NCBI GenBank assembly: GCA_026397695.1
Contig: JAPLUJ010000279.1
Span: forward strand, 2,740 to 13,345
Source of the DNA: Verrucomicrobiota bacterium
GTDB taxonomy: Bacteria > Verrucomicrobiota > Verrucomicrobiia > Verrucomicrobiales > Akkermansiaceae
Length of the DNA: 10,606 nt
Reading direction: 5' to 3'
Shown here: one piece after another, positions 641 through 4,623 of the stretch
How the letters are laid out: every line of letters starts with the position of its first letter
Position numbering within the stretch: the first letter of the stretch is position 1
Program-made: the position numbers and the translations under genes
The notes under the pieces: generated by a model
Told to the model about the DNA's origin: nothing
Databases searched by the model: none
What the model saw: only the letters and a program-made list of their open reading frames with translations

Positions 641-769
641 GTTATATGTTATAAGTTAGAAGTTATTAGAAAAAGACAGAAGAGGAGAAGACAGAAGACA
701 GAAGAAAAGAGGACGGATTCGATAATTATTATCTTCTGTCTTCTGTCTCCAAGTCTTCTGTCTCATCTC
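641..769. repeat. Heptamer foldback element A (GACAGAA type) between etfB and etfA
   Basis: The gap is a series of about 7-nt units. On the plus strand GACAGAA occurs at 675-681, 690-696 and 697-703, with an 8-nt unit GAGGAGAA at 682-689. The inverse unit TTCTGTC occurs at 734-740, 741-747 and 756-762, with an 8-nt unit TCCAAGTC at 748-755. The arms can pair: 16 bp, an 8x8 mismatch at the octamers, then 7 bp. The loop contains the palindrome GATAATTATTATC (721-733). The period continues on the outer side as GTTATAT, GTTATAA, GTTAGAA, GTTATTA (641-668). Read on the minus strand, the element starts immediately after the etfB stop codon, and its second arm is followed by T5, so it could act as a terminator, attenuator or mRNA-stabilising hairpin. 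Function is inference. Confidence 0.85.
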
Positions 770-770
770 T

Positions 771-1574
771 TTAAGCGCCCTTGATCCAGGCGACGATATC
801 GGCGGCGATTTGCGCGGGCGGGACATCCTTGATGATCTGGGTGGTGCGGGTCTGGGTGGGGAGGGTCACGGAGGTGAAAGTGATGTCGCCGGTGCCGACC
901 GGGGCAGGCTTGATCGTCTGCAGGGCCGCCATGATGCCGCGCATGTTAGACATGCCGACACGCGGGTTGTTGCTGGGTTCGGGGAGGTTGCCGGTGGCCC
1001 AGCCGATGACCACGGGCGGGGCGCTGCAGACGGAGACTTGATGTTTGCCGCCTTCGACACGCTCCATGATGCGCAGGCTGCCATCGGCCCCGATGGTGAG
1101 GGAATCGACGCCTTGGAATTGGTCGGTGATGGCGAGACGCTCACCTACGATCTGCATGGTAGCTCCGGCCCCACGGGAGGCGGATTCCCAACCGCCGAAA
1201 AGGAGGAGTTGCGACAGGTCGAGACCGGGGATGGCACTGATGGCATCGGCGAGGGCGGCGGCGGTTTCGGCGGCATCGGTGAAGCCGCCGGTCGGGCCGT
1301 CGAGGGCGATGAGTTCAAAGGGGACCTTCTGGGCGATGGTCATCATGACTTGTTGCAGTTTCGCTTTGGGGCCGAGGCTGACCAGCCATACTTTGCTGCC
1401 GGGATGGACGGTGGCGAGATTGGCGGCTTCGTACAGGGCATGACGCGCCCATGGATCTAGCGATGAGGGGAGCATCATTTCATTTTTCAGCGCGGGCCCG
1501 GCGGGGCCGGTGACGGGTTCGAGGGTTTGCAGGGGGTCGGGCACGAGGCTGCCGCAGACGATGATTTGGTACAT
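771..1574 (-). CDS. etfB: Electron transfer flavoprotein subunit beta
   Basis: Beta subunit of ETF, which binds AMP and carries the loop that docks onto partner dehydrogenases. The protein is 267 residues, near the usual 250-265. It begins MYQIIVCGSLVPDP, has an acidic/Ala-rich segment DGPTGGFTDAAETAAALADAI where beta subunits bind AMP, and ends with NNPRVGMSNMRGIMAA, matching the position of the family's recognition-loop segment (normally NxPRY-S-PxIMxA). I chose the ATG at 1574 because it gives the normal ETF-beta N-terminus. A start at 1718 is open, but would translate the heptamer element into a low-complexity leader with no family counterpart. It lies 207 bases downstream of ETF-QO and upstream of etfA. 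No convincing Shine-Dalgarno is seen. The sequence is divergent but the assignment is well supported by context. Confidence 0.9.
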   Translation of the reverse strand: MYQIIVCGSLVPDPLQTLEPVTGPAGPALKNEMMLPSSLDPWARHALYEAANLATVHPGSKVWLVSLGPKAKLQQVMMTIAQKVPFELIALDGPTGGFTDAAETAAALADAISAIPGLDLSQLLLFGGWESASRGAGATMQIVGERLAITDQFQGVDSLTIGADGSLRIMERVEGGKHQVSVCSAPPVVIGWATGNLPEPSNNPRVGMSNMRGIMAALQTIKPAPVGTGDITFTSVTLPTQTRTTQIIKDVPPAQIAADIVAWIKGA

Positions 1575-1623
1575 AAGGTTCAGATGACTGGAGGTTAGGG
1601 ACGCTTCAGGGAGAAGGGATGGA

Positions 1624-1776
1624 GACGCAAGACGCAAGACTCGAAGACGCAAGAAAAGAGGAAGAGAAGAGCAGGCATGCGGCGGAGCGTATTCCTGGAA
1701 ACATCTAACTGATGACACGCGGTTCTCTTCATCATCTTTTTCTTCTCTTGCGTCTTGTGTCTTGCAGTCTTGCGTC
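1624..1776. repeat. Heptamer foldback element B (GACGCAA type) between ETF-QO and etfB
   Basis: The left arm on the plus strand reads GACGCAA (1624-1630), GACGCAA (1631-1637), GACTCGAA (1638-1645), GACGCAA (1646-1652), then GAAAAGAGG. The right arm holds the inverse units TTGCGTC (1748-1754), TTGTGTC (1755-1761), TTGCAGTC (1762-1769), TTGCGTC (1770-1776). Each arm has four units totalling 29 nt, one of them an octamer. The outer 10 bases and inner 9 bases of the arms pair directly, and the middle pairs with a one-base offset. The ~95-nt space between has further GA-rich/CT-rich complementarity (AAGAGAA with TTCTCTT). On the minus strand the first arm begins 5 bases after the ETF-QO stop codon. 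It shares the string AAGAAAAGAGGA and the unit architecture with element A, but uses a different heptamer. Confidence 0.85.
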
Positions 1777-1781
1777 TTTTA

Positions 1782-3557
1782 TCAATTTTCCGCCGAATGC
1801 AGGCCGCCGGATCCGGCTTGGAAGGAGACCAGTGCGTGTTCGGGGTTATGGGGATGGGCTTTGGCGCAGTTCCAGAGGCAGGCACCGCAGTGGATACATT
1901 TCTCACGGTCGAAGACGGGGCGGCCGTTGTCGCTGGGGGTGATCGCCTGGCCGGAGCACATTTCCACACAGATTTTGCTATCGCAGGATTCGCACTCTAA
2001 TGGATAGAGGAAGACGACGTGGTCGGCGTAGCCGGGCGGGGCTTGGACTTTGCCACCCATGAGCAGGGCGTCCTGATGGGAAACCAACAATGCACCGTCG
2101 AACGGAATGGCCGGCCATCCGACGCGGTCCATGAGGATGCCGCTGGCGGCGATGCCTTTGGTATCGCAGTCCTTGCGGATGCGGGCAATTTCCTCGTTGG
2201 AAATACGACCCGCATAGTAGCTTTCGAGGCCGGGCACGCGGGCGTGCGGCGGGCTGGGGCGTCCGGGCATCGAGAGGACTCCGCGGGTGAGGCCGGTGAG
2301 CATGGTGCCGATGAGGCCCGGGACCACGCCACGTTGGAAGCCATCACGGGATTTTTCCGCGATGCGGCCGGCGGCATCGAGTTGGCTGGCACGGCGGCGT
2401 TTGACGTAGGTGGCGTCGAGGTTTTCCCGGCTGAATGGTTTGCCGGCGGTGAGCAGATCGATGACGGCACAGGCGAGTTGCACGCCGGTGGCCCATGCTT
2501 CATCGACGCCCGAGTTTGTTAGAACATTGGTGGAGCCGCTGCCTTCACCGATGCGGGCGAAGCCGTCGCCGGTGAGGAAGGGTTCGCCGCGGCGGCCGGA
2601 TTCCTGCAGGGATTTCGCGCCCCATGAGCGCAGGCGGCCGCCTTTGAGGTGGCGCCAGAGATATGGGTGCATCATCCAATGTTGGAGATAACGATAGGCG
2701 GTGCGGACCGGACTATCAAACCATGAGGGCACGAAAATACCGAGTGATGCCACACGGTCCGGATGGACGTAAAGAAAGCCGAAGATTTCCGGTTCGGGGA
2801 AGCCGATAGTGTGGAGCACGGTGCCGGGAGCGAGTTCGCAATGATCGGGTAGATCCACAACGAATTTCATGCCGAGCGCCCAATCGTGGAGGTGGTGGCC
2901 GTCCGGCACGCCGAAATGATCGTCGAGTTGTTGGCCGATGGCACCGACGGGGCCATCGGCGACCACGGTGAGCGGGGCGCGGACCTCCATGCCGGGGGTG
3001 AAACCTGCGGCGGGTTCGCCGTCCCGCGTGACGCCCTGGTCTGCCAATCTAACACCGGTGACGGCGTGATTTTCAATGATCGCTTCGCTGACGGGGGATC
3101 CGGGCCAGATTTGGACTGTGCCGGTGGCCATGAGTTGGTTGCCTACCCATTGGGTGAACTGGCCCATCGAGAGGACGAGGCCGCCGTGTTTATTGAGGAA
3201 CGACGGGGTCCATGGGAGTTCGATGGCATGGTGTTTTACGCCGAGGAAGCCACCGAGGGTACGGATTGTCCGATCAGCGGCACGCAGGATGAATGGGCGG
3301 CGGCTGGCGCCGACATGGTCTAACAGGTAGAGGATTTTTTCCGAGGTGACCGGGGCCGCCATCGGGATTTGTGCGGAGTCCAATTCGGGAAAGGATTCGC
3401 GCAGGCTTGAGGCCTGGGTGACGACACCCGAGACGCCGATGCCATCGGGGTTCATGGTGGCCGCCGCAAGGGTGGTTAGAAAACCGCCGGCTGCGGGGCC
3501 GAACCCGACGCACACAATATCTGCATCCATGCGCGGACGGTCGATGGGGTTGGTCAT
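1782..3557 (-). CDS. Electron transfer flavoprotein-quinone oxidoreductase (FixC-FixX fusion type)
   Basis: Membrane-associated FAD/Fe-S enzyme that moves electrons from reduced ETF to quinone. The protein has 591 residues, slightly longer than typical bacterial ETF-QO. An N-terminal FAD-binding motif GFGPAAGG lies at 18-25. A second flavin-contact region, GDGFARIGEG to NSGVDEAWATG, lies at about 330-358. A C-terminal ferredoxin domain carries Cys 522, 525, 530, 534 and Cys 554, 557, 560, 564 (CESCDSKIC-EMC and CIHCGACLWNC). Human ETF-QO and FixX use only four of these positions for one [4Fe-4S] cluster, so the extra cysteines are unusual. The ATG at 3557 is preceded by a weak CCACCTC-rich leader; Met10 (DADIVCVG) is an alternative start. 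It is first of the ETF-QO/etfB/etfA set, and the gene downstream is separated by foldback element B. Confidence 0.9.
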   Translation of the reverse strand: MTNPIDRPRMDADIVCVGFGPAAGGFLTTLAAATMNPDGIGVSGVVTQASSLRESFPELDSAQIPMAAPVTSEKILYLLDHVGASRRPFILRAADRTIRTLGGFLGVKHHAIELPWTPSFLNKHGGLVLSMGQFTQWVGNQLMATGTVQIWPGSPVSEAIIENHAVTGVRLADQGVTRDGEPAAGFTPGMEVRAPLTVVADGPVGAIGQQLDDHFGVPDGHHLHDWALGMKFVVDLPDHCELAPGTVLHTIGFPEPEIFGFLYVHPDRVASLGIFVPSWFDSPVRTAYRYLQHWMMHPYLWRHLKGGRLRSWGAKSLQESGRRGEPFLTGDGFARIGEGSGSTNVLTNSGVDEAWATGVQLACAVIDLLTAGKPFSRENLDATYVKRRRASQLDAAGRIAEKSRDGFQRGVVPGLIGTMLTGLTRGVLSMPGRPSPPHARVPGLESYYAGRISNEEIARIRKDCDTKGIAASGILMDRVGWPAIPFDGALLVSHQDALLMGGKVQAPPGYADHVVFLYPLECESCDSKICVEMCSGQAITPSDNGRPVFDREKCIHCGACLWNCAKAHPHNPEHALVSFQAGSGGLHSAEN

Positions 3558-3795: not shown

Positions 3796-4224
3796 TCATC
3801 CGTCTTGTAACACGAGGTGGAAATGGCGTCTTCCGGCAAAGCGGAAGGTGCGGAATCCCCGTTCGTCGAGGGTAAGGATATGCGGAGTTCCGAGGCGTTC
3901 CGCCAGCAGCACCAGAGTGGCGTCGGCAAAATCCATGGGCGCATCGGCATAGCGAGCCATCAGTGCGACCACCGCTTCGAGCCGTAGCGGGGCGAAAATG
4001 TCTTCGATATGAATAGGTCCCTTGGCCAGAAGTCCTGCCAGTGCCCCGGCGCCACCGGCGACGGAGCGGAGGAAATGCATGGCTTCGGTGACGACCGCAC
4101 CCGTGGTGTGAAACCTCCCGCTCAATGGCAGCCACGCCTCACGCACCTGCGCATGGGCAGGGTCGTTCCGATCCAGCAACGCGACCAACGCTCCGGTATC
4201 GACGAGATAGAAGCCGGGTTTCAT
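3796..4224 (-). CDS. vapC: PIN-domain toxin of a VapBC-type toxin-antitoxin module
   Basis: Predicted Mg2+-dependent ribonuclease toxin of 142 residues, the usual VapC size. The PIN-domain acidic residues are visible: Asp9 in YLVDTGALVALLD, Glu47 in VVTEAMHFL, Asp98 and Asp101 in MDFADATLVLLAE, and Asp120 in LTLDERGF. All catalytic positions appear intact, so the toxin should be active. Its ATG (4224-4222) overlaps the TGA stop of the antitoxin gene (4223-4221) as ATGA, which implies translational coupling with antitoxin first. RNA target specificity (tRNA or rRNA cleavage in characterised family members) cannot be told from sequence. The module sits between the acyl-CoA dehydrogenase gene and ETF-QO, genes that would be expected to work together. 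Confidence 0.9.
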   Translation of the reverse strand: MKPGFYLVDTGALVALLDRNDPAHAQVREAWLPLSGRFHTTGAVVTEAMHFLRSVAGGAGALAGLLAKGPIHIEDIFAPLRLEAVVALMARYADAPMDFADATLVLLAERLGTPHILTLDERGFRTFRFAGRRHFHLVLQDG

Positions 4225-4469
4225 TTCGGTCGCCAGTTGTTGCGCTTGATAGCGTCGCGGAACGGGTCCGGTGTGGCGGCTTGTTCCGGGGTGGAAGCCA
4301 GGCAGCCGGCAAAGGCGGCCGCCCGCGTGCCAAACGGAAGCTGCCCAAGCTCCCGCGCCAGCAGGTCGCGGACGAGTTCGGATTCGGACTTGTTCAGTCG
4401 CTCAGCGGTCTCCTTCAAGGCGACGCGCTGGGGCTGGGGTAGGCGAATGGTAAGCGTGGAAGTGTGCAT
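4221..4469 (-). CDS. vapB: Ribbon-helix-helix antitoxin of the VapBC-type module
   Basis: 82-residue protein with an N-terminal ribbon-helix-helix (CopG/Arc-like) DNA-binding domain at about residues 4-42 (LTIRLPQPQRVALKETAERL, then helix 2 SESELVRDLLARELG). The C-terminal tail, rich in Ala, Pro and charged residues, would wrap the toxin. The ATG at 4469 was chosen because the predicted beta-strand LTIRL then begins at residue 6, as is normal. A longer start at 4553 would add a Cys-rich segment and read through the operator-like palindrome. The stop overlaps the vapC start. The protein probably represses its own promoter together with VapC. Confidence 0.85.
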   Translation of the reverse strand: MHTSTLTIRLPQPQRVALKETAERLNKSESELVRDLLARELGQLPFGTRAAAFAGCLASTPEQAATPDPFRDAIKRNNWRPK

Positions 4470-4476
4470 GGCCGAA

Positions 4477-4490
4477 GCATGGCACCATGC
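4477..4490. promoter_or_regulatory. Palindrome upstream of vapB, likely autoregulatory operator
   Basis: GCATGG-CA-CCATGC is a perfect 6+2+6 inverted repeat lying 8-21 bases upstream of the antitoxin ATG. Next to it the 9-mer ATGCAAGAC is repeated directly at 4487-4495 and 4499-4507, 12 bases apart. RHH antitoxins typically bind short palindromes at this position, so this is a good candidate for VapB/VapBC binding. No clear -10/-35 pair was recognised. The rest of the 154-base gap to the upstream gene includes only a minor dyad, TGGCA-AACTA-TGCCA (4579-4593). Confidence 0.5.
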
Positions 4491-4623
4491 AAGACGGAAT
4501 GCAAGACATGAATCCGAGCGGGGGCAACAGGTGGGGCACTCACACCCTAACACACCAAGCGTTGAGTTCGCTCGCGCGTGGCAAACTATGCCAAGTTCTG
4601 GTCTGCCGTCTCCTATCCTTTTC

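Follow-up and report, generated by a model that had tools for sequence, protein, structure and literature searches.

Intergenic heptamer-armed foldbacks in a verrucomicrobial ETF operon as probable gene-less relatives of elements carrying 23S_rRNA_IVP genes

Both gaps beside an electron-transfer-flavoprotein (ETF) subunit gene of an Akkermansiaceae genome are occupied by foldbacks, elements A and B (Table 1). With a probability that we put at about three in four (0.77), they are non-coding, MITE-like members of a widespread bacterial foldback class whose full copies carry an IVP gene (Pfam PF05635, 23S_rRNA_IVP) between inverted heptamer arms. In the same joint reading, the class members sitting in 23S rRNA genes would be the known intervening sequences (IVS). 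We describe here how these elements are built and linked to IVP, how the GAC subfamily is tied to its heptamer, the copies dispersed in one relative, the turnover at orthologous sites and a preference for non-coding stretches. The window, i.e. the whole stretch of DNA analysed (10,606 nt, G000:C212:2740-13345), belongs to a genome of 4.5 Mb (G000) and carries, on its minus strand, an ETF operon with the genes of the ETF subunit (PF01012) and of ETF-QO. It also contains a PIN-domain and ribbon-helix-helix gene pair (3796-4553) that resembles a toxin-antitoxin module.

Table 1 Features of the window and of related loci
Feature	Position or locus	Strand	Description
GTTANNN heptamer array	641..666	+	beside A; units GTTATAA
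Element A, whole foldback	675-762		GACAGAA arms
A left arm	675..703	+	GACAGAA 675-681, 8-nt GAGGAGAA 682-689, GACAGAA 690-696, GACAGAA 697-703
A loop	704..733	.	30 nt
A right arm, inverted	734..762	-	TTCTGTC 734-740, TTCTGTC 741-747, 8-nt TCCAAGTC 748-755, TTCTGTC 756-762
ETF subunit (PF01012)	771..1574	-	flanked by A and B; CAT at 1572-1574 taken as start codon; stop 771-773
Element B, whole foldback	1624-1776		GACGCAA arms
B left arm	1624..1652	+	GACGCAA 1624-1630, GACGCAA 1631-1637, 8-nt GACTCGAA 1638-1645, GACGCAA 1646-1652
B loop	1653..1747	.	95 nt
B right arm, inverted	1748..1776	-	TTGCGTC 1748-1754, TTGTGTC 1755-1761, 8-nt TTGCAGTC 1762-1769, TTGCGTC 1770-1776
ETF-ubiquinone oxidoreductase (ETF-QO)	1782..3557	-	transcript neighbour upstream of B; stop 1782-1784
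Gap A in relatives (sequence readings)	G029, G019		GACAGAA-type with A's loop
Gap A in relatives (sequence readings)	G006		GTTANNN foldback
Gap A in relatives (sequence readings)	G018		GTTA remnant
Gap A in relatives (sequence readings)	G036		one-sided TTGGGTC array
Gap A in relatives (sequence readings)	G026		mixed arms
Non-GAC IVP arrays of G000	C549, C511		GGGGCTA-type
Non-GAC IVP array of G000	C537		AGAGACC
Non-GAC IVP array of G000	C402		GATAGAA/GATCGTG
Non-GAC IVP array of G000	C10		short, AGTCATG-type
Dispersed foldback-loop copies of G036	L364-L375		variable arm length
CTAG-bounded repeat	L006, about 1470-1570
CTAG-bounded repeat	L025, about 1350-1550		two tandem copies
CTAG-bounded repeat	L030, about 1470-1570

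The first-pass annotation had reported two foldbacks with GACAGAA (A) and GACGCAA (B) arms, one 8-nt unit in each arm and a common sequence at the inner edge of the left arms, and all these features were located. The octamer takes unequal positions in the arms of B, which read 7-7-8-7 (left) and 7-8-7-7 (right) from the outside inward, and the right arm of B includes one GACACAA unit. The common sequence, AAGAAAAGAGGA, lies at 702-713 in A and at 1651-1662 in B. The pattern GACNNAAGACNNAAG had four matches in the window versus 0.00 expected, with none of 200 shuffles containing any, and these shuffles together with the reversed-pattern control of the genome (see below) rule out chance as the origin of A and B. 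Folded as RNA, both elements are far more stable than shuffled sequences. The coding strand of the operon is the minus strand; RNA of this strand folds at -48.1 kcal/mol (z -7.3) for A, with its two octamers unpaired in a 3x3 internal loop, and at -75.4 kcal/mol (z -9.8; the sole strand folded) for B. Plus-strand RNA of A folds at -42.6 kcal/mol (z -4.85). Only 8 nt separate the right arm of A from the ETF subunit stop codon, and 5 nt that of B from the ETF-QO stop codon.

The arm pattern AAGACN{2,3}AAGACN{2,3}AAGA gave 82 matches in G000 (40 forward and 42 reverse) versus 1+1 for the reversed pattern used as control, and it was present in 43 of 59 genomes (G000 counted in), which confirms a family in this genome and its relatives and excludes that only two copies exist. 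The matches, which overlap and are therefore not element counts, ranged from 0 to 409 per genome among the 59, a span also seen within one genus. A stricter pattern detected at least 112 stretches in 84,980 species genomes, those among the matches listed being mainly from Verrucomicrobia (with Akkermansiaceae as a frequent label), besides some Bacteroidetes and a single Pyrinomonadaceae, in assemblies that may be mis-binned. Verrucomicrobium sp. BvORR034, whose genome does not bear a MAG label, also has such repeats. The unit order 7-8-7-7 was found in 99 of 257 distinct GAC arms. Neighbours among these arms at 700 nt or less formed 52 convergent, 1 divergent and 18 same-strand pairs, a few of them being orthologues or possible assembly duplicates (e.g. 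L089/L184 and L058/L163); the convergent orientation is strongly enforced. GAC arms also tend to avoid ORFs and prefer non-coding stretches: by crude script ORF calls, 132 of the 252 arms taken (from the 257) were at most 20% covered by ORFs versus 8% of random stretches, the remaining 48% being covered to a larger extent.

The position of A and B, 5-8 nt past stop codons within an operon, and their very stable folding would suit hairpins that serve the host, selected as stems in 3' UTRs or between cistrons for stabilising, attenuating or separating the operon mRNAs. The conservation of B points the same way. In a close relative (L180), 91.9% identical to the window over 3,476 aligned bases, both 29-nt arms of B are identical and its loop is 93.7% identical. 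At gap A, however, L180 has a GACNCAA foldback with a loop unrelated to that of A, and since foldback and loop both differ, the "matched change" at this site is a replacement of the entire element. The first-pass annotation was right in part, on the shared architecture, on the agreement of heptamer kind between the arms of one element and on the hairpin as the unit. Orthologues of the ETF subunit were found in 6 of the 58 other genomes (79-87% identity). Gap A has diverse structures in relatives (Table 1). Among the 59 genomes, an exact pattern of A's loop matched only the window itself and the G029 ETF locus; the loop at the G019 ETF locus is similar by sequence, and the variant units of this orthologue are unmirrored between its arms. 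The GTTANNN array beside A is apparently the surviving left arm of a foldback with a different heptamer, which has both arms at this gap in G006. Judged from these sequence readings, gap A is a turnover spot; no clean empty site with defined ends and no target-site duplication was identified among the loci compared. Such turnover of presence, heptamer and loop at one gap among relatives, and GAC matches going from 0 to 409 within one genus, make a host-serving function an unlikely explanation.

The first-pass annotation overlooked the gene carried by full copies of A- and B-type elements. Six of the 52 convergent GAC pairs have loops of 387-425 nt, each containing an ORF of the family PF05635, annotated also as S23 or four helix bundle protein. 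A seventh IVP ORF among the GAC-selected loci (L193) is without GAC arms nearby. The sole solved IVP relative found by sequence was 2gsc (XCC0516), presumably from Xanthomonas judging by its locus name. G000 has 8 matches to PF05635, 6 of them above the cut-off; the IVP on C239 has GACNNAA arms and the other five have non-GAC arrays on both sides.

Inverted heptamer arms also tend to enclose IVP genes beyond the GAC subfamily, with a heptamer that differs by lineage. We compared the flanks of 115 IVP loci (6 of the 8 G000 matches and the best 109 of a longer list in relatives). At least three inverted 9-mers common to the own two flanks were found at 84 of them versus 4.9% of 13,110 mismatched pairs and 6.2% of 3,624 random placements, the other 31 falling below this threshold; for at least one 9-mer the figures were 95 of 115, 22.8% and 31.6%. 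The flanks had autocorrelation peaks at multiples of seven (lags 7, 14 and 21); stretches farther out had only the coding period of 3. Under a strict cut of 12 of 14 matches at lag 7, 54 of the 114 loci taken for this test were periodic versus 0.4% of shuffles, the same cut giving 1-11 loci of 114 at the other lags tested (5, 6 and 8-11). Purines were richer in the 5' arm than in the 3' arm at 107 of 114 loci. Three or more inverted 9-mers were also present at 17 of 29 IVP loci (the best 29 of a longer list) from other genomes of the phylum versus 4.3%, at 16 of 19 in viral contigs versus 6.4%, and at 9 of 10 in plasmid records (10 taken out of 19) versus 8.9%. The viral set comprised 19 of 25 loci, six apparent repeats having been removed by listing and not by sequence, with L405 and L406 kept though near alike. 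The 9-mer test admits some chance matches, since it fails just one of the ten plasmid loci although, by eye, the arms of L358 (AAAAGCT/AAAAGCC) seem direct rather than inverted and L356 seems armless. The IVP gene of an Azospirillum lipoferum 4B plasmid (L362) lies inside a 23S rRNA gene (Rfam LSU_rRNA_bacteria, 705 bits), between GAGGACG/GATGACA-type units facing their inverse. This locus and the IVS of PMC4990558, as far as described in the part of that paper available, are two examples in which an rRNA IVS is built like the intergenic elements.

In the GAC subfamily, the heptamer follows the IVP sequence. GAC arms with at least two units on each side accompany 14 of 14 IVPs with 65% or more identity to that of C239 and 0 of 101 others. 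The median number of GAC matches was 78.5 in the 14 genomes with a C239-type IVP versus 1 in the 45 without (p=2.9e-7; p=2.5e-4 once 8 matches are subtracted from each genome to allow for the arms of the IVP itself; p=0.0035 with the same genus alone), in a test that is not fully independent because the genomes are related and no relatedness correction was made. G053, from another family, has a C239-type IVP and 221 GAC matches; members of its family without such an IVP have 0-4 (G043, G047, G050 and G056) or 38 (G039). The exceptions are G006, G039 and G009, with 62, 38 and 19 matches and without a close IVP. GTTA-armed IVPs were found in G006, G018 and G032, in loose agreement with the GTTANNN counts; these counts were not used as statistics, the reversed control being high (in G000, 18 matches vs 71), probably through other heptamers. 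The arm heptamers of A and B are of the same kind as at the C239 IVP of the same genome, and the GACNNAA arms of the window probably belong to this IVP lineage.

Dispersal is clearest in G036, in which one 34-nt loop core is present in 12 copies, 8 of them identical, with the two orientations represented 7 and 5 times. A search of the 58 other genomes for this core gave 0 matches, and the G036 loop is also present in another named assembly. The copies differ in the number of arm units, their ends vary and several lie within a longer common repeat, so the moving unit there may exceed the foldback. A mobile loop core common to the family was considered and is not general, A's loop having matched its own locus and the G029 orthologue alone. 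As loops are mostly unshared between loci, "copies" usually have arms alone in common. A repeat bounded by CTAG, in which a single GACNCAA arm (GACCCAAGACAACAAGAC...) precedes the conserved tail GAATTTGACCTAACGACAACACATTC, seems to be a mobile subtype of its own.

REP/RAYT-type or IS-derived MITEs with an unrecognised transposase would present the same dispersed inverted-repeat structure, and could include the G036 copies within a longer repeat and the CTAG-bounded single-arm subtype. The gene found in the loops of full copies, however, is IVP, whose subfamily the GAC arms follow, and we hold this origin to be very unlikely. The differing unit number of same-loop copies and the existence of one-sided and long arrays (as at gap A of G036) might instead be expected of ordinary heptamer microsatellites, with arms that slippage of the polymerase and template switching at hairpins would produce and IVPs that merely lie in such regions; slippage of heptamers is an idea already in print, in the available parts of PMC4692102 and PMC4679880. 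Free slippage should produce neither a 52:1 excess of convergent pairs, nor the IVP-subfamily specificity (14/14 vs 0/101), nor own-flank matching in several sets, and microsatellites appear an improbable account.

The changes were said to be matched in both arms, which we examined in 51 of the 52 GAC pairs by shuffling across genomes, with relatedness uncontrolled. At the fifth base, arm-to-arm agreement was 0.803 versus 0.595 when shuffled (0/2000). At the fourth base it was 0.407 versus 0.348, with 102 of 2000 shuffles reaching 0.407, and in 28 all-GACNCAA elements there was no match at this base (0.302 vs 0.331 shuffled). The match between arms is therefore real for the heptamer class and the fifth base but at most weak overall at the fourth, and absent there within GACNCAA. 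With covariation at the fourth base slight at best, compensation base by base is not supported, nor is strict covariation of arm bases at that position. At orthologous sites, the own arms of IVP elements score 50.5 versus 38.1 for orthologue arms (sd 1.4; 0/5000; 54 of the 55 grouped elements, out of 115, in 9 groups defined by the downstream gene's peptide). The own partner arm was the single best match in 28 of 54 rows, with only 1 of 6 in the livF-like group and 2 of 8 in the DUF58-like group (gene names were read from peptides). By these scores, a single site carries different heptamers in different species, and the two arms of an element tend to match. IVPs with differing heptamers were seen at shared operon sites before pheT-like (L205, L291, L293, L300, L312) and gyrA-like (L204, L294, L304, L308, L310) genes, by peptide reading. 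The presence of IVPs at common operon sites in several genomes suggests that some copies are old residents. IVP orthologues recur at conserved operon sites across many species, a pattern that resembles vertical inheritance more than free mobility.

Comparison with known systems, limited to the available parts of the papers cited in this paragraph and the next, places A and B close to IVS. The IVS of PMC4990558 has inverted terminal repeats, a long stem, an IVP ORF in the loop and tandem heptamers on the ORF side, as found here; upstream of its S23 ORF, Warrier et al. 2016 (PMC4990558) describe GACAGAT three times in tandem and GACAGAA once. Its size is 428 nt, versus 387-425-nt loops plus arms in full GAC copies. 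A and B share the inverted ends forming a long stem but, unlike IVS (and L362), they are not inserted in a 23S rRNA gene, being intergenic in a protein operon, between ETF genes and without any Rfam match in the window. They are also ORF-free, their 30- and 95-nt loops being too short for an S23/IVP ORF, and GAC arm matches number tens to hundreds in some genomes. Neither a general inverted-heptamer rule nor gene-less copies appear in that portion of the IVS account of PMC4990558. A and B belong to the heptamer-armed IVP foldback class as defined here by convergent arms of tandem 7-nt units of one heptamer kind, which is also the kind around an IVP gene of the same genome. They are also MITE-like, being non-coding and dispersed with inverted repeats, though most members share arms and not loops. 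MITEs and REPINs (PMC3116915, PMC3733652) are likewise short non-coding inverted repeats dispersed between genes, but here the arms are tandem heptamers, the loops are mostly unshared and the linked gene is IVP.

Heptamers are described as over-represented among bacterial repeats, without a detailed literature (PMC4692102). The GGGAATC repeats of Xanthomonas (Rehm et al. 2015, PMC4692102) are, as here, intergenic tandem heptamers varying in sequence and length between relatives, and form 70 and 75 convergent pairs in two genomes. They were studied as G-quadruplex formers, whereas GACAGAA and GACGCAA lack G-runs. The TAACTGA repeats of Beggiatoaceae (PMC4679880) are also intergenic heptamer tandems, nearly all direct with one inverted set reported, while the arms here are inverted. 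The terms "S23" and "four helix" occur 0 times in the text of PMC4692102, and "S23" and "23S rRNA" 0 times in that of PMC4679880. Paired inverted heptamer arms, of which the first-pass annotation gave no known case, are in print for Xanthomonas (PMC4692102), and tandem heptamers at the IVP gene for one 23S rRNA IVS (PMC4990558). Inverted heptamer pairs (PMC4692102), IVS heptamers (PMC4990558) and IVP genes in cas loci (PMC3936711) had thus been published separately. New with respect to the open-licence literature searched (without bioRxiv and most subscription papers), in which no link between IVP and inverted heptamer arms was found aside from the PMC4990558 heptamers, are the general form of this link and the gene-less foldbacks as relatives. 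Heptamer repeats scattered over genomes, hairpins between genes and insertions in rRNA appear to form a single kind of element.

In the sections of the papers at hand, the function of IVP/S23 proteins is said to be uncharacterised (PMC11270868, PMC10053308) and PF05635 to resemble Avd of diversity-generating retroelements (PMC10053308). If A and B are gene-less members of the IVP foldback class, the arms would be the recognition and folding unit of the IVP, an Avd-related four-helix bundle that could act in trans on gene-less copies. The transcripts would fold into a hairpin cuttable by RNase III, as reported for the rRNA IVS, so that insertion between operon genes might cost little. Arm length would change through slippage, and the heptamer of a site mostly by whole-element replacement. 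The Avd resemblance (PMC10053308) might also suggest a retroelement-like spread by a reverse transcriptase acting in trans, for which folding transcripts would be suitable. However, reverse transcriptase (PF00078) is present in 10 of the 14 genomes with a GAC-armed IVP and in 29 of the 45 without, and had no match in G018 (97% complete, 93 GAC matches) or G006 (97%, 62). Its presence does not track GAC abundance, so that as a simple correlate it is unsupported, and we see this route as improbable too. A bolder proposal, possible but which we advance only tentatively, is that IVPs are mobility or maintenance factors of pan-bacterial hairpin elements without transposase or reverse transcriptase, each recognising its own heptamer stem and propagating both its own gene and gene-less hairpins. 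Were this so, a single system would embrace the heptamer repeats of bacteria, heptamer hairpins between genes and the intervening sequences of rRNA. The lineage-specific link between IVP and arms makes the arm hairpin a candidate ligand, for which the heptamers of other lineages are ready specificity controls. It also leads one to expect that gene-less hairpins multiply in the presence of the matching IVP.

IVP genes have been reported in cas loci (PMC3936711, in the part available), and these may be element insertions and not cas genes. In plasmids of two different cyanobacteria (L354 and L358), an IVP gene with heptamer arrays is found between cas6 and cas4.
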